Source of the DNA: Phycisphaerales bacterium
GTDB taxonomy: Bacteria > Planctomycetota > Phycisphaerae > SM23-33
Direction: 5' to 3'
NCBI GenBank assembly: GCA_018644725.1
Contig: JABGPZ010000107.1
Span: forward strand, 1 to 33,913
DNA: 33,913 nt
In this document: positions 9,184 through 29,085 of the stretch, in pieces
How positions within the stretch are numbered: position 1 is the stretch's first letter
Layout: the number at the start of each line of letters is the position of its first letter
Notes under the pieces: model-generated
Database searches by the model: none
What the model saw: only the letters and a program-made list of their open reading frames with translations
What the model was told of the DNA's origin: nothing
Program-made: the position numbers and the translations under genes

Positions 9184-9266
9184 CGCCAAAGCAAGGTATG
9201 CTATTCTACCCCGTTAGCCTCTAGGACTAACTCACACAATCCCAATTCCCCTTTTTGGAGATCGAC

Positions 9267-10883
9267 ATGACCCTGACCCGTCGCAACTTCCTGCAATATG
9301 TTGGCATCGGCGCCGCCGCTGTCGCCGCCCCGAACCTCACCTTCGCCAAGGCCAAGGCCGGCGCACCGAACCTGCTGATCATTCAGACCGACGAGCACAA
9401 CTTCCGCACGCTGGGTTGCTATCGCGACCAGCTGCCCAAGTCTGAAGCATTGATGTGGGGCCCGGACGCAATTTGCGAAACGCCGCACATCGACTCGATC
9501 GCCAAAGAAGGGCTGATCTGCAACCGCTTCTACGCAAGCACGCCGGTCTGCAGCCCCTCGCGCGGTTCGCTGGTCTCCGGCCAATATCCGCAAAACTCGC
9601 CCGTGACCAACAACAACGTCCACCTCGGCGACGACGTGATCACCTTCGCCGAAATTCTCCGCCGCGAAGGCTATGCAACGGGCTATTCCGGCAAGTGGCA
9701 CCTCGCTGGCAACGCGAAACCCGGCTGGGCTCCCAAGAAGAAGTTCGGCTTCACCGACAACCGCCTGATGTACAACCGCGGCCACTGGAAAAAACTCGCC
9801 CTCACGCCCCAAGGCCCGCGCGTGGACACCGGCAGCAAAAACTCCTACACCTGCGCAGGCGCGACGAAGAAAAACTTCACCACCGACGTCCTGGCCGACT
9901 GGACGATCGACTTCATCCGCAAACACAAGAACGAACCATTCTGCTACATGGTCGCCATCCCCGACCCGCACGGCCCGAACAGTGTCCGCGCGCCATACAA
10001 CACCATGTACGACAAGATGAAGTTCACCGCGCCCAAGACGATGAGTAAGAAAGCCGCCGCTGCGCCAGACTGGGCCAAGCCCCAAGACAAGACCTTCAGC
10101 GCCGGTATGATGAAGAGCTACTTCGGCATGGTCAAGTGCATCGACGACAATGTCGGCCGCATCATCGCCGAACTCAAGAAACTCGGCATCTACGACAACA
10201 CGATCGTCATCTTCACCTCCGACCACGGTGACCTGTGCCACGAACACGGCAAGCACAATAAGGGCAACCCGCTGGAAGGCTCGGCGAAGGTCGCCTTCGT
10301 GCTGCGCTACCCCAAGACCGTCAAGGCCGGGACCGTCATCGACGAAGCGCTGACCTGCGTGGACTTCCTGCCGACCGCGCTGGGACTGATGAACGTCAAG
10401 ACCGCGGGCAAAGAAGAAGGCCGCGACGCGTCGAAGCTCTTCACCACCGGCAAAGCACCCGCCGGGTGGGAAGACTATGGCTTCTTCCGCTCGACCTGCA
10501 AAGACTCGAAGACCTGCCCGAAATGGCTGGCCGTCGCGACGAAGAAACTCAAGTTCGTCGTTGGCCCCCAATGCGAGCCGTGGCTGATCGACCTCAAGAA
10601 GAACCCCAACGAGCTGACCAACTCGTTCGCGGACCCGGCCTATCGCGAAGAACTGCGCGCCATGGGCAAGGCCCTGCGCGCCTACTGCAAAGCCTATGGC
10701 GACTGCGCGATCAAGAACCCCGCGATCAAAGCCGCCATCGACTTCGCAGCCGACGGCAATGGGAAATTCGTCGCACCGAAACCCGTCGCACCGAAACCCG
10801 TCGCGGTAGAAGCCAAACCCGCCGCGAAGACGAAATGGGCAAAGAAAGCAGCTAAGAAAGCCGCTAAGAAAGCGGCAGAGTAG
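9267..10883 (+). CDS. sulfatase, choline-sulfatase-like, with Tat signal and lysine-rich tail
   Basis: The product is a 538-residue exported S1-type sulfatase that hydrolyses sulfate esters. The start has GGAG 6 nt upstream. The Tat signal is TRRNFLQYVGIGAAAVAAPNL in outline (RR then FL). The metal site begins LLIIQTDEHNFR, the formylglycine motif is VCSPSR with Cys95 as the residue to be matured, YSGKWHLAG carries the catalytic Lys and His, and VIFTSDHGD supplies the later Asp-His pair. The last 40 residues are unusual: a KPVAP repeat, then AKKAAKKAAKKAAE, like a histone H1 tail, encoded by near-identical DNA repeats. The substrate is unknown. It is monocistronic, between two terminators, and needs a sulfatase-maturing enzyme not present here. 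Confidence 0.94.
   Translation: MTLTRRNFLQYVGIGAAAVAAPNLTFAKAKAGAPNLLIIQTDEHNFRTLGCYRDQLPKSEALMWGPDAICETPHIDSIAKEGLICNRFYASTPVCSPSRGSLVSGQYPQNSPVTNNNVHLGDDVITFAEILRREGYATGYSGKWHLAGNAKPGWAPKKKFGFTDNRLMYNRGHWKKLALTPQGPRVDTGSKNSYTCAGATKKNFTTDVLADWTIDFIRKHKNEPFCYMVAIPDPHGPNSVRAPYNTMYDKMKFTAPKTMSKKAAAAPDWAKPQDKTFSAGMMKSYFGMVKCIDDNVGRIIAELKKLGIYDNTIVIFTSDHGDLCHEHGKHNKGNPLEGSAKVAFVLRYPKTVKAGTVIDEALTCVDFLPTALGLMNVKTAGKEEGRDASKLFTTGKAPAGWEDYGFFRSTCKDSKTCPKWLAVATKKLKFVVGPQCEPWLIDLKKNPNELTNSFADPAYREELRAMGKALRAYCKAYGDCAIKNPAIKAAIDFAADGNGKFVAPKPVAPKPVAVEAKPAAKTKWAKKAAKKAAKKAAE
10776..10880. repeat. repetitive DNA coding the lysine/proline tail of the sulfatase
   Basis: CGTCGCACCGAAACC is repeated nearly exactly, then AAGAAAGC(A/C)GCTAAG units repeat about three times. 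The translation is KPVAPKPVA and KKAAKKAAKKAAE. Tail length could change by slippage or unequal recombination. Confidence 0.75.
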
Positions 10884-18080: not shown

Positions 18081-19619
18081 CTACTTTTTCACTTTTTTGT
18101 TTTTCTTCGGCTTCTTGTTGATTATCTTTTCTTTTTTCGGCATAGGTAGCGGCGTGAGGCCTTTGAATTCGGGATTGATGCAGTTCTTGCCCCATCGGGT
18201 CATGGTCGCGCGCAGGCCTTCTTTGGACTCGCCATCGGCGGCCTTGTCGTCGGTGTCCTTCAACCAGCCCTCCAGCGCGGCGCGATATTCATCGAGCACC
18301 TTCTTGTACTTCGGATCGGTCGCGAGGTTCTTGATTTCATTCGGATCGGCCTGGAGATCGTAGAGTTCTTCGGGTGCGCGTTTCTCCCACCCAGCCGCCT
18401 GGGCCGGGGTCAGCTTGCCCTCTTCATGCATCTTCTTGAGCGTCTTGAACGGCTCGCCCTTGGAGCGGTAATTGTGCTGATAGAGCACGCGGTCGGTGAG
18501 GAAGTTGCGGATGTAGTGGAAGCGCTCGCCCATGACCGAGCGAATCCGCTCGATGGTAAAGTCGCAGCGATCGCGGTTGGAGAAGATGTACTTCCGGCCG
18601 TAGCCCTTGGCGAACAGGTCCTTCGAGTCCATCCACTCGGGAATGTCGATTCCCGCAAACGCCATCGACGTCGCCGTGATGTCCAGCAGGTTGATCAGGT
18701 CTTTGCGCGTCGTGCCGCGGAGTTCCTTCGGCAGCGCGCCACCAGCGATAATCAGCGGCACATGGAGGCCTTCGTCATAGCAGAACTGCTTGGCGCGGGC
18801 CATTTTTCCGCCGTGGTCGGTGAAGACAAACAGGATCGTATTGTCCCACTGGCCGGCGGCTTTGATCTGCTTGACGACGTTGGCCGCGTCGTAGTCGCTG
18901 CAGAGCATCGTGTCGTGATGATGCGCAATTTCGTTACGAATCTGCGGAATGTCGGGATACTGCGGCGGAACGGTGACGGTCTTGGGATCGGTCGCCTTGA
19001 CACCGCCGACGAAGCGCGCCTTCACCCGGTTACCGGACTTGCCGCCATGGGCCTGAATCTGCCCGAAGAAGGGTTTGCTCTTCGCGTTGGCCTCGGCAAT
19101 CGAGCCTCCGCCCTTGCCGCCATAGAAGCTCACCGTCCCGGGCTTGGTACCGAGGGTATAGACGGCCTTGCGGTCGTAGTTAAAATTGTAGTCGTCCTTG
19201 CCCTTGTTGAACGCGTTGTAGCCCGCCTTGCGGAAGAGCTCGGGCGCGGTGCAGACCCCCTCGGGCAGGTGAATCTGTGCGCCGGGGTGGCGGCTGGAAC
19301 GGTGATCGTGGATGCCAGTGCGAATCGAGTAGGTCCCGGTGACAATCGCCGAACGGCACGGGCTGCACACGGGCGTGGGGACGTAGCAACGCTCAAACCG
19401 CACGCCGTCTTGGGCGAGCGCGTCGAGCGCGGGGGTCTTGACGAGATTGCCGCCAAGGACTTCCGGGTAGCAGCTCCACCACGGGTGCTGATCTTCAATG
19501 AAGAGCCAAACGATGTTGGGTTGCTTGGTCTTGGGCGCGGCCGAGAGGATCGACGGCATTGCGGTAGCGGCGAGGGTCGTCCCAACAGTGGTCTTCATAA
19601 AGGTTCGGCGAGTTTGCAT
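18081..19619 (-). CDS. sulfatase, heparan N-sulfatase-like, third gene of the operon
   Basis: The product is 512 residues with a Tat signal (TRRTFMKTTVGTTLAATAMPS). The metal site starts IVWLFIEDQHPWW, where E-D replaces the usual D-D. The formylglycine motif is VCSPCR: Cys85 is the residue to be converted, with a second Cys at the position that is Ser or Ala in most relatives. It has IHDHRSS, NKGKDDYNF in the GKWH position, and FVFTDHGGK. These traits resemble the N-sulfoglucosamine sulfohydrolase branch, so removal of N-linked sulfate from glucosamine is possible but not proved. The tail is lysine-rich (KKEKIINKKPKKNKKVKK). AGGAG lies 6 nt before the ATG, 23 nt after the stop of the previous sulfatase. 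Confidence 0.94.
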   Translation of the reverse strand: MQTRRTFMKTTVGTTLAATAMPSILSAAPKTKQPNIVWLFIEDQHPWWSCYPEVLGGNLVKTPALDALAQDGVRFERCYVPTPVCSPCRSAIVTGTYSIRTGIHDHRSSRHPGAQIHLPEGVCTAPELFRKAGYNAFNKGKDDYNFNYDRKAVYTLGTKPGTVSFYGGKGGGSIAEANAKSKPFFGQIQAHGGKSGNRVKARFVGGVKATDPKTVTVPPQYPDIPQIRNEIAHHHDTMLCSDYDAANVVKQIKAAGQWDNTILFVFTDHGGKMARAKQFCYDEGLHVPLIIAGGALPKELRGTTRKDLINLLDITATSMAFAGIDIPEWMDSKDLFAKGYGRKYIFSNRDRCDFTIERIRSVMGERFHYIRNFLTDRVLYQHNYRSKGEPFKTLKKMHEEGKLTPAQAAGWEKRAPEELYDLQADPNEIKNLATDPKYKKVLDEYRAALEGWLKDTDDKAADGESKEGLRATMTRWGKNCINPEFKGLTPLPMPKKEKIINKKPKKNKKVKK

Positions 19620-19642: not shown

Positions 19643-21172
19643 CTATTTCTGCGGCTGTTCCAATTTGTAAGTGCGGTCATAAAGCTTCGTGTTATTTTCC
19701 AGCCAATAGTGCTCGGTGCGGAACATGGGATGGGCGGTCTGCTTTTCCCAGTTAAAGAGGTCTTTCATCATCTCCTTGACGACGGCAGGATTCTCGTGCG
19801 CCAGGTCCGTTTTTTCGGAGATGTCGGTCTTGAGGTCGAAGAGCATCGGCGGGCGGTCGGGCAGGACCACCAGCTTCCAGTCGCCCTTGCGAACGGCCTT
19901 GCCGGGCGGGCGGAACCAGAACAGCGCGGTGTGCGGGGTCTCTGTCGTTTTGCCCGTGACATACGGCATCAGGTCCACGCTGTCGATGACGTGGCGGAGC
20001 GCAAAGCCCTGCTCGCGGTTTTTCTTTCCGCCACCGAGGCAGCTGACCTGAATCCCGAGCGATTTTTCAATCTCCGGGACTTTGGTTTCGCGCTCGACGG
20101 CAAGCGTGTTCATCAATTTTTGCGGATCGCTCACGCCCGCAGCACCCAGTGCCGTGGACATGATGTCCAGCGAGATCACGGGCTTGTCGTAGACTTTGCC
20201 CGCGGGAATTTTCCCCGGCCATTGCATCGCGAACGGGACGCGGATGCCGCCCTCGAGGAGCGTACCCTTCATGCCATTCAGCGGCGCATTGCACGAGGAA
20301 TTTGTCAGCGGCGTGCCGCCATTGTCGTTGATGAAGACCACCAGCGTATTGTCGGCGATGCCGTTTTTCTTGAGATTGTCCATGACCGTCCCAACCATGC
20401 GGTCGAGGCCGAGGGTCATGCCGCCGAGAATCTTCCGGCCCTTGGCGCCTTTGAGATCCTTGAACTCCGCGAGGTCTTTCTTGGTGGAGTGCATCGGCGT
20501 GTGAACGGCGTTGGGCGCGAGGTACATGAAGAACGGTTGTTCCTTCTCCTTGCAGTCGTCGATGTACTTGCACGCCTCGAGGCCGAGTTGGTCGGTCATG
20601 TAGCCGTCGAACTTTTCGATCGTGCCGAGGTCGCGCTCGCACTTGTTGACCCAGTAGCTGCTGCCGCCGCCACGGAATCCGAAGAAATCGGTGAACCCGC
20701 GCTTGCACGGATGGTACTCATCCTGATGGCCAAGGTGCCACTTGCCCAACGCGATTGTGCGATAGCCCTGGGACTTCATCGCGTCGGCAACGGTGACCTG
20801 GTCGACGCGCATGCCCTTGCAGGCCGGGTCGTCGCCGGGAGACGAGCTGCCGAGATTCGTGATGAACCCGAAGCGCTGTTGATAGCGACCCGTGAGCAAT
20901 CCCGCGCGGCTGGGTGCGCAAACACTCGCCGAGACATAGCCATTGCTGAACCGCACGCCGCCCTTGGCGAGGGCATCGATATTCGGCGTGGGGAACTGCT
21001 TGCTGCCGTGCATCGAAAAATCGGCATAGCCCGCGTCATCGCAAATGATCACGAGGACGTTGGGTTTGTCGTTCGACGCCTTGGCGGGTTTGGGCTCCGC
21101 CAGTGCCAGTCGGCCAAGGCCAACCGCGCCAGCGGTCAGCGCTGTCGTGCGAAGAAAATTACGTCGGTTCAT
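19643..21172 (-). CDS. arylsulfatase-type sulfatase, second gene of the operon
   Basis: The product is 509 residues with a Tat signal (MNRRNFLRTTALTAGAVGLG). It has the canonical S1 layout: VLVIICDDAGYADF (metal ligands D-D), SVCAPSRAGLLTGRY (formylglycine Cys85), ALGKWHLGH (Lys and His), APNAVHTPMH, and VVFINDNGGT (Asp-Asn). It should hydrolyse O-sulfate esters; relatives act on N-acetylgalactosamine or uronate sulfates, but the substrate cannot be read here. Its ATG overlaps the stop of the preceding sulfatase (TAATG), so translation is coupled. Unlike the other three sulfatases in the window it has no lysine-rich tail (it ends YKLEQPQK). Confidence 0.95.
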   Translation of the reverse strand: MNRRNFLRTTALTAGAVGLGRLALAEPKPAKASNDKPNVLVIICDDAGYADFSMHGSKQFPTPNIDALAKGGVRFSNGYVSASVCAPSRAGLLTGRYQQRFGFITNLGSSSPGDDPACKGMRVDQVTVADAMKSQGYRTIALGKWHLGHQDEYHPCKRGFTDFFGFRGGGSSYWVNKCERDLGTIEKFDGYMTDQLGLEACKYIDDCKEKEQPFFMYLAPNAVHTPMHSTKKDLAEFKDLKGAKGRKILGGMTLGLDRMVGTVMDNLKKNGIADNTLVVFINDNGGTPLTNSSCNAPLNGMKGTLLEGGIRVPFAMQWPGKIPAGKVYDKPVISLDIMSTALGAAGVSDPQKLMNTLAVERETKVPEIEKSLGIQVSCLGGGKKNREQGFALRHVIDSVDLMPYVTGKTTETPHTALFWFRPPGKAVRKGDWKLVVLPDRPPMLFDLKTDISEKTDLAHENPAVVKEMMKDLFNWEKQTAHPMFRTEHYWLENNTKLYDRTYKLEQPQK

Positions 21173-22635
21173 TATTCGGTCCCTTTGGGTTTCTTGGTCT
21201 TCTTGGCCTTGCGGGCCTTGCGAGCTTCCTTGAATTCCTTGGGCGGTTTGGTTTTGTCTTTCATCGGAATGTCCACGCCGCCAAGGAGATAATTCTTATT
21301 GAGGACGTGCTCGCCCTTGAAAATGTCGAGGCATCGCGCGGTCAGCTCGGGATGGCTCGAAGAAATGTCCTGGGTTTCCTTCAGGTCATTCACGAGATTA
21401 TAGACTTTGATTTTGTCACTGCCGCCCATGCGGAGCGCGCGATAGTCGCCGACGCGCAGCGTCTGCCAACGGCCAAGTTCGAAGTAGAGGAACTCGTGCT
21501 TCTCTTGGGTCTTGCCAAGCAACGTCGGCAGGAAACTGATGCCATCGGTGCCGTCCTTGGGGTCTTGGCCGACCAATTCTCCAATTGTCGGCATCACGTC
21601 GTAGAACGCGCTGATGTGATTCGTCACGATTCCAGGCTTGATCTTGCCCGGCCAGTACGCGATCATCGGCACGCGGTTACCCCCTTCGTAGGGCGTGTAT
21701 TTTTTACCCTTGAGTGGGCCCGATCCGTTGAAGAAGCCCAGCGTTCCGCCGCCGCCGTGAGCGCCATTGTCGGACGCGAAAATCACGAGCGTATCTTCCT
21801 CAAGGCCGAGTTCTTTCAGTAGCGCAACGAGCTTACCGACATCGCCATCCATGCGACTGATCATCGCGGCCTGGCATTTCTGCGACGGCGTCCAGCCCTT
21901 CATATCTTTATACTGCGCCAGGTCGGGAACCTGGAAGGCCGTGTGCGGAATCGTGTAGGCGAGGTACAGGAAGAACGGGTTGTCCTTGTTCTTCTTGACA
22001 AACCCCAGCGCCTCTTCGGTCAGCAGGTCATGGGTATATTCACCATACTTGCCATCGGGATTGTCGGTGCGCAGCTTCGTGGACCCATCGCCCTTGAGCG
22101 GAACCTTGGTCTGATTGCGCCAAACGTGCGTGGGATAATAGCTGTGTGCCAAGCGTTGGCAGTTGTACCCGAAGAAGTGATCGAAGCCCTGATTGTTCGG
22201 GTCGCCCGTCGAGGCGGGATAGCCCAGGCCCCACTTGCCCATGGCCCCCGTCGTATAGCCCGCGCGCTTGACGAGCGTCGCAAGGGTTTCGGTGCCCTTG
22301 GTGAGCGGGAAGTTGCCTTCGAACTTCAGCGGCTTGTTGTTGCGAATCTGCGCGTGGCCAGCGTGCATGCCCGTCAACAGAATGCAACGGCTCGGCGCAC
22401 ACAGCGCACTGCCGGAATAGTGATCGGTGAACTTCATCCCGCCCTTGCAAAGCGCGTCGACCTGCGGGGTCTTGATCTTTTTCTGCCCATAGCAGCCAAG
22501 CTCGCCATAGCCAAGGTCGTCACAGAGAATGTACACAATATTGGGTTTGCGCGTCTTGGGAGCAGCCATCGCCGGGAGCGAAGCGGCCGCAAGGCCCAGA
22601 GCCGTGGTTTTGAGGAATGTACGCCGTGTTGTCAT
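21172..22635 (-). CDS. arylsulfatase-type sulfatase, first gene of the operon
   Basis: The product is 487 residues with a Tat signal (TTRRTFLKTTALGLAAASLPA). S1 motifs in order: IVYILCDDLGYGELG, ALCAPSRCILLTG (formylglycine Cys79), AMGKWGLGYP (Gly in place of the usual His of GKWH), YTIPHTAFQVP, and VIFASDNGAHGGG (Asp-Asn). The GKWG variant is common in one arylsulfatase branch. The C-tail is lysine/arginine-rich (KEARKARKAKKTKKPKGTE). The start at 22635 has AAAGGA 8 nt upstream; a TTG two codons earlier is an alternative. It leads a three-sulfatase operon, 87 nt after the regulator gene, with its own likely promoter and an operator-like repeat in the gap. Confidence 0.95.
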   Translation of the reverse strand: MTTRRTFLKTTALGLAAASLPAMAAPKTRKPNIVYILCDDLGYGELGCYGQKKIKTPQVDALCKGGMKFTDHYSGSALCAPSRCILLTGMHAGHAQIRNNKPLKFEGNFPLTKGTETLATLVKRAGYTTGAMGKWGLGYPASTGDPNNQGFDHFFGYNCQRLAHSYYPTHVWRNQTKVPLKGDGSTKLRTDNPDGKYGEYTHDLLTEEALGFVKKNKDNPFFLYLAYTIPHTAFQVPDLAQYKDMKGWTPSQKCQAAMISRMDGDVGKLVALLKELGLEEDTLVIFASDNGAHGGGGTLGFFNGSGPLKGKKYTPYEGGNRVPMIAYWPGKIKPGIVTNHISAFYDVMPTIGELVGQDPKDGTDGISFLPTLLGKTQEKHEFLYFELGRWQTLRVGDYRALRMGGSDKIKVYNLVNDLKETQDISSSHPELTARCLDIFKGEHVLNKNYLLGGVDIPMKDKTKPPKEFKEARKARKAKKTKKPKGTE

Positions 22636-22676
22636 GATCAATATCCTTTCCAGAATAATGGGTTATTTGCCAAATC

Positions 22677-24122: not shown

Positions 24123-25973
24123 ATGAATCGACGAACCTTTCTCCATACCGCATCGATCTCCCTGCTGGCGAGTCAGCTTTCTTCCGCAGAGCCCCCCGTC
24201 GCGCCCGCCGCCCCTGCTGCGGTGCTGACTGCGGATGACCTCGCCGATGGACCGACCTGCCTAGGCCGCCCCATCACCGACCGCAAGGCATGGGACGCCT
24301 TGGACAAAACAAAATTCGCATGGGACATTCGCAAAGCCGCCTTGACCGCTGCCACCGCCTCCGACCCGGACCTCTCCAAAAAAGCCTACATGGCATACTT
24401 CGTCCCAGGAAATAAGATAAACTACCAATCTCGATACAACACCGCCAAGATGCGCCTGGCGACATTTCTGTATGCCGAATGCCTCGACAACAAGGGGCGC
24501 TATCGCGAGCGAATCGCGCACTACGTCAAGCTGCTCTGTGCATTGAAAACCTGGGTCCCCCCCACCAAGGGAGTCGGCAACAAAGACTATGACGGCAAGC
24601 GCCTCTACATTGGCCTGGTCTCCTCGGGTACGGCCGCATTGCTGGCACTGGTTCATTCCACTCTCGGAAACACTCTGCCCGAAGACCTGCGCACTCTGAT
24701 CGAGGACCGCATCAACGAACGAATCCTCGTTCCCTACATGCAAACGCTCTCGGGACAATGCACCACCCTGTGGTGGCGCGATAGCTCCAGCAACTGGAAT
24801 GCCGTTTGCCATGCCAATATTGCCATCGCCGTCTTGGCCGTCCTCAAGAACCCCGCGCTTCGCCTCAAGGTGATCCAGGACATTCACAAATCAAGCCAAC
24901 TCTACCTCAAGGGCTTTACGCCCGACGGCTGGACCACGGAAGGCCCCAGCTACTGGAACTACGGCTTCCGGCACTATCTCCTTCTCGCCGAGACCCTGCA
25001 CATTGCCACCAACGGAACAATCGATCTCTATGCCGGCGACACTGCCCGCCACATCGCGAGCTTTGGGCGCGGCGGGTTGATCGACGGATATGTCTACCCC
25101 AGCTTCGCCGATTGTACCATTCAGGCCGGTCCCCCGAAAACCATGCTCACGTTTCTCGACAGCGTGTACGCCCCCACGCCCCCAAAGGCCCTCCTCTCTG
25201 GAAGCGGACGGGTTTTGCCGATGCTCTACCTCTTTGGCTCCCGCGCGAGACACCCCCACCGCGATTGGCCCGCGCCAAACGCCTTACCAATCCGCACGTT
25301 CTATCCCGTGCCTCAAGTCTACATCGGCCGCGGCGCGGAAACTCTGACCTTCGCCGCCAAGGGCGGACACAATCAGGAATCTCACAATCACAACGACCTC
25401 GGGTCGTTCCACCTGCTCAAGCACGGCTCGTTCATCGCCCTCGACCCCGGCGGGGAAATGCCCAACAAGGATACCTTTGGCAAAAATCGCATGAAATCGG
25501 ATGCGCACAATTCCCTCGGCCACAGCGTTCCGCGCATCGCCGGACAGCTTCAAGCCTACGGGAAACAATTCACCGCCAAGCTGGTCTCGAAGCAATTCAC
25601 CCCCACCCTCGACACGTTCACCCTCGACCTCGCCGGTGCCTACAACGTCAAAACTCTCACCGCCCTGACGCGCTCATTCACCTATGACCGCACCAAAGAC
25701 TCGCTGGTCGTGGAAGATCAATTCAAGTTCTCCCAGCCCGAGATGTTTGAAAGTGCGCTGATCATTCTCGGGACATGGCAAATCGCGGACCACAAAACCA
25801 TCCTGATCCGCCACAAGAACCAGAGTGTGCGACTCACCATCGAAACCACGGCCGCGCTCACACTCACCGAGCAGACCCTCAACGCCAAATATCGAAACAT
25901 CAACCCGGTGCGACTGGCCTTCACGCTCAAGGACAAACACGCCGCTGGCACGGTCCGGTTTACGTTTCACTAA
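24123..25973 (+). CDS. heparinase II/III-family polysaccharide lyase
   Basis: The product is 616 residues with a Tat-like signal (MNRRTFLHTASISLLASQLSS). Residues about 60-370 look like the alpha/alpha toroid, with SNWNAVCHANI, the Asn/His segment that includes catalytic residues in this family, and GPSYWNYGFRHY. The C-terminal beta-sandwich starts with the hallmark GGHNQESHNHNDLGSF near residues 413-428. Such enzymes cleave uronic-acid polysaccharides (heparin, heparan sulfate, alginate-like) by beta-elimination. Three sulfatases and a XylR-like regulator next door suggest that the natural substrate is sulfated, and one of the sulfatases is N-sulfatase-like, which would fit a heparan-type glycan; this remains inference. 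It ends just before the repeat element at 25984. Confidence 0.9.
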   Translation: MNRRTFLHTASISLLASQLSSAEPPVAPAAPAAVLTADDLADGPTCLGRPITDRKAWDALDKTKFAWDIRKAALTAATASDPDLSKKAYMAYFVPGNKINYQSRYNTAKMRLATFLYAECLDNKGRYRERIAHYVKLLCALKTWVPPTKGVGNKDYDGKRLYIGLVSSGTAALLALVHSTLGNTLPEDLRTLIEDRINERILVPYMQTLSGQCTTLWWRDSSSNWNAVCHANIAIAVLAVLKNPALRLKVIQDIHKSSQLYLKGFTPDGWTTEGPSYWNYGFRHYLLLAETLHIATNGTIDLYAGDTARHIASFGRGGLIDGYVYPSFADCTIQAGPPKTMLTFLDSVYAPTPPKALLSGSGRVLPMLYLFGSRARHPHRDWPAPNALPIRTFYPVPQVYIGRGAETLTFAAKGGHNQESHNHNDLGSFHLLKHGSFIALDPGGEMPNKDTFGKNRMKSDAHNSLGHSVPRIAGQLQAYGKQFTAKLVSKQFTPTLDTFTLDLAGAYNVKTLTALTRSFTYDRTKDSLVVEDQFKFSQPEMFESALIILGTWQIADHKTILIRHKNQSVRLTIETTAALTLTEQTLNAKYRNINPVRLAFTLKDKHAAGTVRFTFH

Positions 25974-26040
25974 GGAAAAATGGAACGATCCTGCTCTGTA
26001 TAGAACATGGTTATCTTTCTTGTTTTCTGTGTTTATGTAA

Positions 26041-26226
26041 GCGCCGAAGGCGCGACAGTGGATAGCCGGGGGCGTGAGCCCCCGGAAAGCGGTCTAACCA
26101 ATTGAGCCCTGAAAGGGCGACAGAAAATCACCTGTTTACTGTCTGCCGCCCCTTCGGGGCTCGACTGAATTTCGCACGGGTCCGGGGGCTTACACCCCCG
26201 GCTATCGACGGCCGGCCTTTCAGGCC
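26041..26226. repeat. nested GC-rich hairpins (REP-like) in the left part of the element
   Basis: Six palindromes stand in order: GCGCCGAAGGCGC (26041-26053), CCGGGGGCGTGAGCCCCCGG (26066-26085), GCCCTGAAAGGGC (26106-26118), GCCCCTTCGGGGC (26148-26160), CCGGGGGCTTACACCCCCGG (26182-26201) and GGCCTTTCAGGCC (26214-26226). The outer two pairs are inverted copies of one unit, linked by GATAGCCGGGGG, and the inner two are also inverted, so the whole block is a palindrome of palindromes. This is REP/BIME organisation. Confidence 0.8.
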
Positions 26227-26421
26227 TCAATTCATACAAACAAACAGAAAGATCTCGTCATGGAAATTCCATACATGGGGAGTCTTGATGTTCTATACAG
26301 AGAAGACAGGTATCTGAAAACGAAAAAGAAATGAGGAAAAGAGGACAGGGCAAAGGGTACCCGTCTGCTCTATATAGAACATTAGAAAGATATATTTTTC
26401 CTGTGTCTGTTTGATTGTGAT

Positions 26422-26494
26422 GCGGGCATCTTGCCTGCGTCTGTCTTTGTTTTCTAGAAAAATAGAAGAAAACCCATGCAGGCTGGAAGCCCGC
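26422..26494. repeat. inverted REP-like pair in the right part of the element
   Basis: GCGGGCATCTTGCCTGC (26422-26438) and GCAGGCTGGAAGCCCGC (26478-26494) are near reverse complements and each also folds on itself. Dispersed repeats with this GCGGGC...GCCTGC pattern are common in planctomycete-like genomes, as I recall; not checked. Confidence 0.65.
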
Positions 26495-26565
26495 ACCACA
26501 AATACACAAACATTGAAAACAAAGAATCCATGTTCTATACAGAGCAGAACGATCCCCGTTTTACA

Positions 26566-29085
26566 CTAGCCTTTGCGGCCGGGGCGCTGGGAGGGTTCGA
26601 CATCGTCGAGCTTCACTTCCATTTCAAACGCGCCGTGGAGGACGACGGCTTTGCCTTTTTCGACGTCCAGCCGGACCAGTGTCGCCATGGTGCGGAACGG
26701 AACGACGTACACTTTTTCGCCCGGAACAAGTTTCGCGAGACGGTCTTTGTTTGCGGTCGATGCTCGCTGTTTCCGCTTGGCGTGACGCATGGGCTTGTCG
26801 TCGTGCTGGCGCGACTCGCCGCCGCGGCCTTTGTGGGCGGCCTCGCTGAACGGGCCTGTCTGCGGGAACAACTCGCTACACGGCAGGCCCAACGCCTCCC
26901 CGTTCGGCAACTCGATTTTGGCGACAAACTTCGCCCAATCGATCTCCAACAACTTCGCTCGTCCGGGTTTGCGATTGATCGTCACGGTCCCGTCCACCTT
27001 CGCCCCAACGAGCGCAGCACGCCACGCCTCGAAATTCTCCTGCTGGGTCTTGTGATTGCTCGCCACGCGCCGCGCATCACTCAACACACGCTGGGCCTCG
27101 TCGAGATGCCCCTGCGATTCTCGCTCAAGCAGCTTGGCCTTGGTGTGGATCGTGCGCAATTCTTCGCGTGTGGAACGCTGGCCGAGATCAGGCATCAATT
27201 CGATCAGCGGCACTTCGCGCTCGATGCCGCCAATGTCCAGCAGCGCAATCTGCTTGTGCAACTCCAGCCGCACCAACGTCGCCGGACTCCCCGTCAGCGG
27301 ATCGTTGACCGCCCGCCCGGGCTTCCAATCTGCCAGCGTCGCCAGCCACGTCGCGAACTGATCGCGCAACTGCTTGACGTCGTCGATTTGCTGTTCGAGC
27401 GCCTCGGAGTTCGCGAGATATTCTTCCTTCTGCTCCGCCGCATCCGCCAACGCGACCTCGGCCTTGCGCCTCGCCTTGCCGGTTCGCCGCAGAGCCTTGC
27501 GAAATTCCTTGCCGCGATTGGCATGGTATTCCCGCGCACGCCGCGTGATCGCCGGGGGCATGCCGAGCTTGTCCGCGACCGTGATCGCGTGGGACTCGCC
27601 GGGCGTACCGAGCAAAAGATGATAGGTCGGGCGCAGGGAGTCCGAATCGAACTCGACCGACGCGTTGTCGACGCGCTCGTGGTTGATCGCGTAGGCCTTG
27701 AGCACCGACAAGTGCGTGGACACCATCGCGAGGCATCCGCTCTCGAGCAGCTCATCGAGCACCGCCCGGCCGATCGCGCCGCCCTCGTCGGGGTCCGTGC
27801 CGCTGCCGAGTTCGTCGAATAGCACGAGGCAATTCTTCGGGCGCACTTCCAGACGATGAAAGATCGATTTCAGTCGCTCAATGTGGCCGCCGAACGTACT
27901 GAGCGATTGTTCGAGCGACTGCTCGTCGCCGATGTCGATCAGCACATCTTCCAGCAGCGGAAGCTGTGCGCCGCGCCGCGCGGGAATCGGAATCCCGCAG
28001 TGCGCCATCGCCACCAGTAGCGCGACGGTTTTCATCGCAACGGTCTTGCCGCCGGTGTTGCTGCCCGTGATGACCAAAATGTCGTAACTGCCGCCGAGGC
28101 GAACGTCGATGGGGACCACGCGACGCGGCTCGGACTCGCGGGCGAACTGCCACTCCAAAAGCGGGTGCCGCGCGTGATACACTTCCACCACCCCGCCGGG
28201 CGCAATCTCGGGCGCGTGCATATCGTTCTTGTAGGCCCACTGCGCTTTGGCGGAAATCAAATCCACCCGCGCCGCACACCGCAACGCCGTCTTGATCGAG
28301 TCTTGCCGGCGCACCAATCGCGCCGACAGATCCGCCAACAGCCGCTCGATTTCCGCGCGCTCGTCTTGACGGAGATCCACGAGGCGATTGTTCAGCTCGA
28401 CCGATTCGTTGGGCTCGACAAACATCGTCGCGCCGGACTGGCTCGCGCGGTGAACCAGCCCCCCACCGAGTCGGCCGACGTGGTCGGCGCGCACCGGCAG
28501 AACATAGCGGTCACCGTGGAGCGTGAACGTCTCGGCCGTGAGCAGCTTGCGCACCTCGCTGCGGCGGAGGTAACTCGTGATCACTTCGCGGACGTCATAT
28601 TCAATGCGGCGCATTTCGGCGCGGATCTTTTTCAGGTGCCCCGAGGCGTTGTCGAGAATCTCGCCGTCCGGGCCGACGACCCGGCGAATCGCCGTCACGT
28701 CCGGTCCGAACTCACCAATCGAGCGCATCTGATCGCGCAACAGCGCATAGCCCTCGGGCAGTGCTTCGAGGAACGCGCGCAATTCGCTCAGCGCTTCGAG
28801 CGTCGAGGCAATCCGGGCAAAGTCATCGCCATCGGCCCCGCAGCCGGGCATGGCGCGTTCGAGCGGTTCGGTAATGTCGCCCACGCCGCCGAGGGGCGCC
28901 GTACCCACCGCGCCGAGCACATCGACCATCTCGGCCGTCTCGCTCTGCCAGCGGCGGATCGTATCGATCTTCGCGGACGGCACAATTCGACCTGCCAGCC
29001 GACGGCCGACGGCCGTGGCGCAGAACGTCTGCACAATCTCCCGCACCGCAGGAAACTCAATCTTGTCTAACGTAATCTCATCCAT
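26566..29085 (-). CDS. mutS2: MutS2-like ATPase lacking the Smr nuclease domain
   Basis: The product is 839 residues. The order is that of MutS2: core and clamp helices (1 to about 320, with GDRYVLPVRADHVGRLGGGLVHRASQSGAT split around the VHRASQSG motif), Walker A TGSNTGGKTVAMK near residue 340, EQSLEQSLSTFGGHI, Walker B CLVLFDELGSGTD near 420, and the following MVSTHLSVLKAYA. A long coiled coil follows, then a KOW-like end (LVPGEKVYVVPFRT and ATLVRLDVEKGKAVVLHG). Most MutS2 proteins then carry an Smr endonuclease domain with LDLR and HGKG motifs; here the chain stops after the KOW-like part. MutS2 suppresses recombination and rescues stalled ribosomes in different bacteria; without Smr, nucleic acid cleavage is unlikely. 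A promoter lies 8 nt before the ATG. Confidence 0.88.
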   Translation of the reverse strand: MDEITLDKIEFPAVREIVQTFCATAVGRRLAGRIVPSAKIDTIRRWQSETAEMVDVLGAVGTAPLGGVGDITEPLERAMPGCGADGDDFARIASTLEALSELRAFLEALPEGYALLRDQMRSIGEFGPDVTAIRRVVGPDGEILDNASGHLKKIRAEMRRIEYDVREVITSYLRRSEVRKLLTAETFTLHGDRYVLPVRADHVGRLGGGLVHRASQSGATMFVEPNESVELNNRLVDLRQDERAEIERLLADLSARLVRRQDSIKTALRCAARVDLISAKAQWAYKNDMHAPEIAPGGVVEVYHARHPLLEWQFARESEPRRVVPIDVRLGGSYDILVITGSNTGGKTVAMKTVALLVAMAHCGIPIPARRGAQLPLLEDVLIDIGDEQSLEQSLSTFGGHIERLKSIFHRLEVRPKNCLVLFDELGSGTDPDEGGAIGRAVLDELLESGCLAMVSTHLSVLKAYAINHERVDNASVEFDSDSLRPTYHLLLGTPGESHAITVADKLGMPPAITRRAREYHANRGKEFRKALRRTGKARRKAEVALADAAEQKEEYLANSEALEQQIDDVKQLRDQFATWLATLADWKPGRAVNDPLTGSPATLVRLELHKQIALLDIGGIEREVPLIELMPDLGQRSTREELRTIHTKAKLLERESQGHLDEAQRVLSDARRVASNHKTQQENFEAWRAALVGAKVDGTVTINRKPGRAKLLEIDWAKFVAKIELPNGEALGLPCSELFPQTGPFSEAAHKGRGGESRQHDDKPMRHAKRKQRASTANKDRLAKLVPGEKVYVVPFRTMATLVRLDVEKGKAVVLHGAFEMEVKLDDVEPSQRPGRKG

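Follow-up and report, generated by a model that had tools for sequence, protein, structure and literature searches.

The locus lies in a window of 33,913 nucleotides (the whole stretch of DNA that was analysed), where a block of repeated sequence occupies a spacer of 592 bp. The genes on either side are convergent, one encoding a heparinase-like protein (24123–25973) and the other being mutS2 (26566–29085). As a separate observation on the gene content of the window, four sulfatase-like proteins, three of them consecutive, are encoded at 9255–10883, 18081–19619, 19643–21172 and 21172–22641, all within 34 kb, and CSPSR/CAPSR-type active-site motifs can be recognised in them by eye.

Within the spacer, the 20-mer CTGCTCTGTATAGAACATGG is found at 25991–26010, and its identical reverse complement at 26528–26547, with AACGATC outside both copies, exactly as described in an earlier, sequence-only reading of this DNA. 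A repeat finder paired the same ends as inverted 35-nt sequences with 80% complementarity. Because the outermost C/G pair is ambiguous, a 19-bp terminal inverted repeat (TIR) accompanied by a 9-bp duplication is the better reading: the perfect TIR, TGCTCTGTATAGAACATGG, runs from 25992 to 26010 on the forward strand and from 26528 to 26546 on the reverse strand, and the 9-bp sequence GAACGATCC is directly repeated immediately outside, at 25983–25991 and 26547–26555 (forward strand, 9/9 identity). The 7-bp duplication initially proposed must accordingly be extended to 9 bp, a length that is exact at the locus and general in the family described below. The insert delimited by the duplications measures 555 bp and contains no credible gene, in agreement with the earlier description; its open reading frames are all short, and either cross palindromes or reach into the flanks.

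These features are more than chance. Four copies of a 17-bp end motif are present in the stretch, compared with 0.03 expected in the window according to dinucleotide shuffles of the whole window, and agreement between two 9-mers at one fixed pair of positions has a chance probability of about 1 in 262,000. The spacer thus harbors a gene-less, non-autonomous transposon insertion, bounded by terminal repeats and a duplicated target, a classification that the sequence-only reading had also reached.

The proposal that the insert is one simple element of 557 bp did not survive closer inspection, as ends of the same motif exist in its interior and one of its parts, element A, is found elsewhere in the genome without the other, element B. 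Since the end motif recurs inside, at 26287–26304 and 26366–26383, the insert can be divided into two elements with 59 bp of a third repeat between them. Element A (25992–26304, forward strand, 313 bp) is a genome repeat that behaves as a unit in searches and whose ends can be aligned. It is made of an L-type end (the left TIR), a T-rich linker, two mutually inverted palindrome trios (the core, 26039–26244), a second linker and an R-type end, TTCTCTGTATAGAACATC (26287–26304, reverse strand). The 59-bp piece (26306–26364) represents the interior of a 77-bp palindrome-pair repeat, to which it is 82% identical over 61 bp (E = 6e-10). Element B (26366–26546, reverse strand, 181 bp) has the same ends as A in reversed orientation and a different palindromic core; its R-type end, TGCTCTATATAGAACATT, lies at 26366–26383 on the forward strand, and its L-type end is the right TIR. 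The two outer ends are hence of the L type (CATGG), and the two inner ones of the R type (CATYA).

When the flanks were compared pair by pair, agreement was 9/9 for the outer ends, 4/9 for A alone and 4/9 for B alone, so that the duplication fits only the A-repeat-B block as a whole. The arrangement is that of a composite transposon, with two copies bounding a block and a duplication outside the outermost ends. A second copy of the block was not found in the genome and, the block being single-copy, its movement as a unit is supported by one 9-bp match. In an alternative scenario, a 77-bp repeat already resident at the site would have received A in one of its palindromes and B in the other, in separate events, and the shared GAACGATCC would reflect either chance or gene conversion, with no movement of the block. 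The middle piece is indeed the exact inside of the 77-bp repeat, the letters found outside the elements (AAAAATGG and CCCCGTTTT) resemble its ends, and copies of A located elsewhere lie in or beside repeats of this kind. However, a 9/9 direct repeat in the exact register of the family would then be a coincidence, neither A nor B has a duplication of its own, and the two halves of an inverted pair would be expected to leave flanks repeated in inverted, not direct, orientation. We consider separate insertion rather improbable, and movement of the block as a unit remains our preferred reading.

Element A is present in at least five long copies, and in fragments, dispersed in the genome. Copies were detected by BLAST at C110:57438 (96%), C80:11850 (91%), C42:36756 (83%) and C68:180052 (82%), and contigs C66, C69 and C30 carry fragments at or close to their ends, which suggests that the assembly breaks at further copies. 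The end motif occurs at several additional sites with 1–3 mismatches, which disposes of the concern that the 20-mer might be unique to the locus. The 77-bp palindrome-pair repeat is represented by about 20 further copies of nearly full length. Aligned A copies share 81–95% identity pairwise, a divergence that speaks against the recent insertion suggested by the first reading; the term recent can apply at most to the outer duplication.

A clean 9-bp duplication was not found at the copies of A on C80, C110 and C42, which suggests that their flanks have been reshuffled. This observation admits another explanation for the locus itself: an older single insertion could have left the duplication, and recombination between copies of the A type could then have built the block around it in the absence of composite transposition. 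Arrays of REP sequences are substrates for recombination, and the reshuffled flanks on C80, C110 and C42 speak in favor of such a history; on the other hand, at least two exchanges would be needed, both outer ends would have to be kept perfect, and no exchange is directly shown. This scenario seems to us unlikely, albeit less so than separate insertion, and transposition of the whole block is retained as the favored explanation.

The strongest evidence for the transposon nature of the family comes from other genomes. A scan of GTDB genomes for TGCTCTGTAKARAACATG detected short elements or ends in the Planctomycetota MAGs CSMAG_1807, STB_133, NIOZ-UU13, B3_Pla and co234_bin25, and also in MAG ZE-3nov15-121 (G427), which is labelled Deltaproteobacteria. 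Matches in other groups look like chance, several of them lying in coding sequence. When a phylum-wide search was performed with at most 1 mismatch, 7/392 genomes gave matches, several probably by chance. In ZE-3nov15-121, a count that allowed up to 3 mismatches gave 69 end-like sites, compared with 4 for a reversed control pattern, and many of these sites form inverted pairs 240–420 bp apart. Two candidate locations for a transposase gene were discarded: the single ends in G007 are accompanied by ordinary genes only, and represent one side of more short elements, while at G002:C69 the motif sits in small intergenic palindromes and not at a transposase.

Thirty elements from five genomes (G427, G007, G426, G422 and G214) were used for a duplication test, in which the nine bases outside each end were compared. 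Flanks agreed at 69% of positions in the 9-bp register, compared with 24–35% at every other shift. Agreement of at least 8/9 was found in 13 of the 30 elements (9/9 in eight of them), and none of 510 shifted controls exceeded 7/9.

The parent of these elements was sought with the DDE_Tnp_1 profile over the carrier genomes. In B3_Pla (G429), a transposase gene lies in a 994-bp element with ends TGCTCTGTAGAAAAGC (16/16), and its product scores 161 bits against the NCBIfam IS5 model NF033579, above the cut-off of 140. A match to the IS5 transposase was found in 50 of 298 relatives. Insertion sequences (IS) of about 1 kb that combine TGCTCTGTAGAAAASC ends, an IS5-family transposase and 9-bp duplications were present at L267, L291–L294 and other loci, with full-length copies showing 9/9 duplications at L293, L294, L302, L304, L310 and L311. 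The ends of L292, which comes from the GTDB family of the window genome, are again TGCTCTGTAGAAAAGC (16/16), while those of L302 and L304 are more distant (GGCTCTGTCTCGACC and GGCTCAGTCTCGACC). The same signature is thus accompanied by an IS5 transposase in relatives, and the ends in the window agree with those IS ends at only about 12/16 positions, as judged by eye. Because the IS5 elements of about 1 kb share the kind of ends and the 9-bp duplications, A and B can be considered IS5-type MITEs. Other properties concur: a 19/19 TIR, a duplication of fixed length, short size, lack of genes, dispersed copies, and the existence of an IS with partial end identity in relatives.

In the window genome, the 95%-complete draft of 112 contigs, whose gaps mean that absence is not proof, yielded neither a PF01609 gene (DDE_Tnp_1, IS4/IS5-type) nor a match to the IS5 transposase of relatives; these searches consequently produced no autonomous IS with the same ends. 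The view that the parent transposase might still be active in this genome loses ground with such results, and the 81–95% divergence of the copies points in the same direction. If a local parent existed, its transposase gene would be expected to have TGCTCTGTATAGAAC as boundaries. ZE-3nov15-121 is a comparable case, as its dozens of 240–420-bp elements were found without a DDE_Tnp_1 gene. IS-derived MITEs are an already known kind of element, and those described here resemble IS5-family IS (NF033579, DDE_Tnp_1) and their derivatives in having TGCTCTGTA-kind TIRs, 9-bp duplications, and short gene-less copies beside full IS in related genomes. They differ in that the window block consists of two MITEs around a third repeat, and in that the searches of its own genome yielded no parent. 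No publication on IS5-derived MITEs with 9-bp duplications turned up in a literature search.

Examination of the insertion sites indicated a target preference. The pattern AAAAxGG...CCxTTTT occurs at 12 of 36 family sites compared with 0.1% of nearby control positions; because the pattern was chosen after inspecting the sites, the associated p-value (7e-27) overstates the case, but the contrast is still large. At the locus, AAAAATG (25976–25982) and CCGTTTT (26556–26562) would be the halves of a target palindrome, AAAAATG-GAACGATCC-CCGTTTT. Palindromes resembling AAAAxGG-(9 bp)-CCxTTTT also flank two genes for Y1 transposases in the window genome, C111:10015 and C47:2430. Calculation of the folding energy of reconstituted sites revealed no general excess of stable hairpins (of 23 sites whose duplication was good, 4 ranked in the top 5%); hence, the preference rests on the sequence pattern. 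Targeting of REP palindromes is known for IS of the IS3, IS110, IS4, IS256 and IS5 families (Tobes and Pareja 2006, PMC1525189). Insertion into palindromic extragenic repeats is a trait in common with those IS, with the difference that only about one third of the sites fit the palindrome pattern here; a loop-and-stem target of the AAAAxGG-(9 bp)-CCxTTTT type is not described in the passages of that paper that were consulted.

The core of A has a distribution of its own. Its modules, a trio of GC-rich palindromes followed by a second, inverted trio, are found dozens of times elsewhere in the genome, mostly without TIRs. Five genes for Y1 (IS200-like) transposases are present, and two of them (C68:165811 and C81:549) carry A-core palindrome modules on both sides. 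The Rfam model of Acido-Lenti-1 (RF01687) spans two palindromes out of the three in a trio, and scores above its curated cut-off (37 bits) twice in A, at 26040–26085 on the reverse strand (55.1 bits) and at 26182–26227 on the forward strand (43.5 bits), as well as in the other copies of A and on either side of each of the two Y1 genes. In the latter, the matches are inverted with respect to each other: L041:394–439 and 1030–1075 at the gene on C81, and L042:1318–1363 and 1901–1946 at the gene on C68.

Weinberg et al. (2010, PMC2864571) listed Acido-Lenti-1 among candidate RNAs and assigned it to Acidobacteria and Lentisphaerae, and little is known about its function according to a 2026 paper (PMC13298647). 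The matches found here agree with the published family in sequence and structure, but differ from the published candidate RNA (PMC2864571) in that they flank Y1 genes on both sides, in inverted orientation, in the manner of REP sequences. Because the motif flanks two Y1 genes on both sides, it behaves as a REP in this genome, the only one in which the link has been shown; judging from its distribution, it looks like the REP of these Y1 transposases. Dispersion between genes, inverted palindrome pairs and location beside Y1 genes are traits shared with REP, REPIN and BIME elements associated with Y1 (RAYT) transposases; unlike in those systems, the palindromes in A are the cargo of a TIR-bounded element that duplicates its target. 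The palindromes in A may accordingly be viewed as non-autonomous relics of a Y1 (IS200-like) system, in which case A would be one mobile element nested in another.

The existence of five Y1 genes, two of them with A palindromes at their flanks, raises the question of whether the repeats might have been moved by Y1 (RAYT/IS200-like) enzymes instead of a DDE enzyme. IS200/IS605-type Y1 enzymes are not known to make target duplications, and the outer ends of the block are those of IS5 insertion sequences and give family-wide 9-bp duplications. We therefore deem Y1 transposition a very improbable cause of the insertion, although it is the likely origin of the inner palindromes. Still less credit, if only by a little, can be given to the idea of a regulatory or non-coding RNA locus (a terminator array or an sRNA) in place of a mobile element. 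Convergent genes do end on both sides, and the two Rfam matches belong to a family filed as sRNA; yet the same sequences appear at many unrelated places in the genome, and the presence of Acido-Lenti-1 on both sides of Y1 genes points to a mobile repeat. A later function of the stretch as terminator may nevertheless have been acquired.

Returning to the DDE enzyme, we find it probable that the locus originated by one insertion catalysed by a transposase of the IS5-family type, with A-repeat-B moving as a single unit and with Y1 relics nested in A. In the sequence of events that we envisage, A and B would have inserted into the same copy of the 77-bp palindrome-pair repeat. Their outermost ends, both of the L type, might then have been recognised together by the IS5-type transposase, and the block would have moved once, in the manner of a composite transposon, into an AAAAxGG...CCxTTTT palindrome between the convergent genes. 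The transposase would afterwards have been lost from the genome, or else be absent from the draft. An insertion of this kind predicts that the empty heparinase-mutS2 spacer should read AAAAATGGAACGATCCCCGTTTT.

Three features seem new: a clade of MITEs whose palindromic cores have been swapped, the block made of two MITEs, and, in one genome, the link between Acido-Lenti-1 and Y1 transposases. The intergenic clutter of bacteria may thus contain DDE-type MITEs, Y1-type REPs and their targets nested in one another, and the 9-bp duplication permits outer boundaries to be told from inner ones. A broader proposal, which we put forward tentatively and regard as possible at best, is that a widespread IS5-type MITE clade inserts into the palindromes of some Y1-associated REPs and carries others as cargo, so that two unrelated transposases spread each other's repeats, and that Acido-Lenti-1 is overall a REP and not a regulatory RNA. 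The idea that Acido-Lenti-1 is a Y1 REP is testable and, if true, would change the interpretation of such annotation matches.

Additional observations concern other Y1 genes. The longer genes at C111:10015 and C47:2430 (L043 and L044) are each bracketed by inverted palindrome pairs of about 80–130 bp, AAAAAGGGGACAGTTCCCTTTTT and AAAAAGTAGGGACAGGCACTACTTTTT, each gene having its own stem sequence. In MAG NIOZ-UU13, the start of a Y1-type gene (MPRLARAVAVGFAHHITQRGNNRQDVFFVDDK; L176:1386 region) is interrupted at a copy of AATAGGGACGCACC + TGCTCTGTATAGAACAT, as if a sequence of the AATAGGGACGCACC + TGCTCTGTATAGAACAT type had been inserted into the gene.
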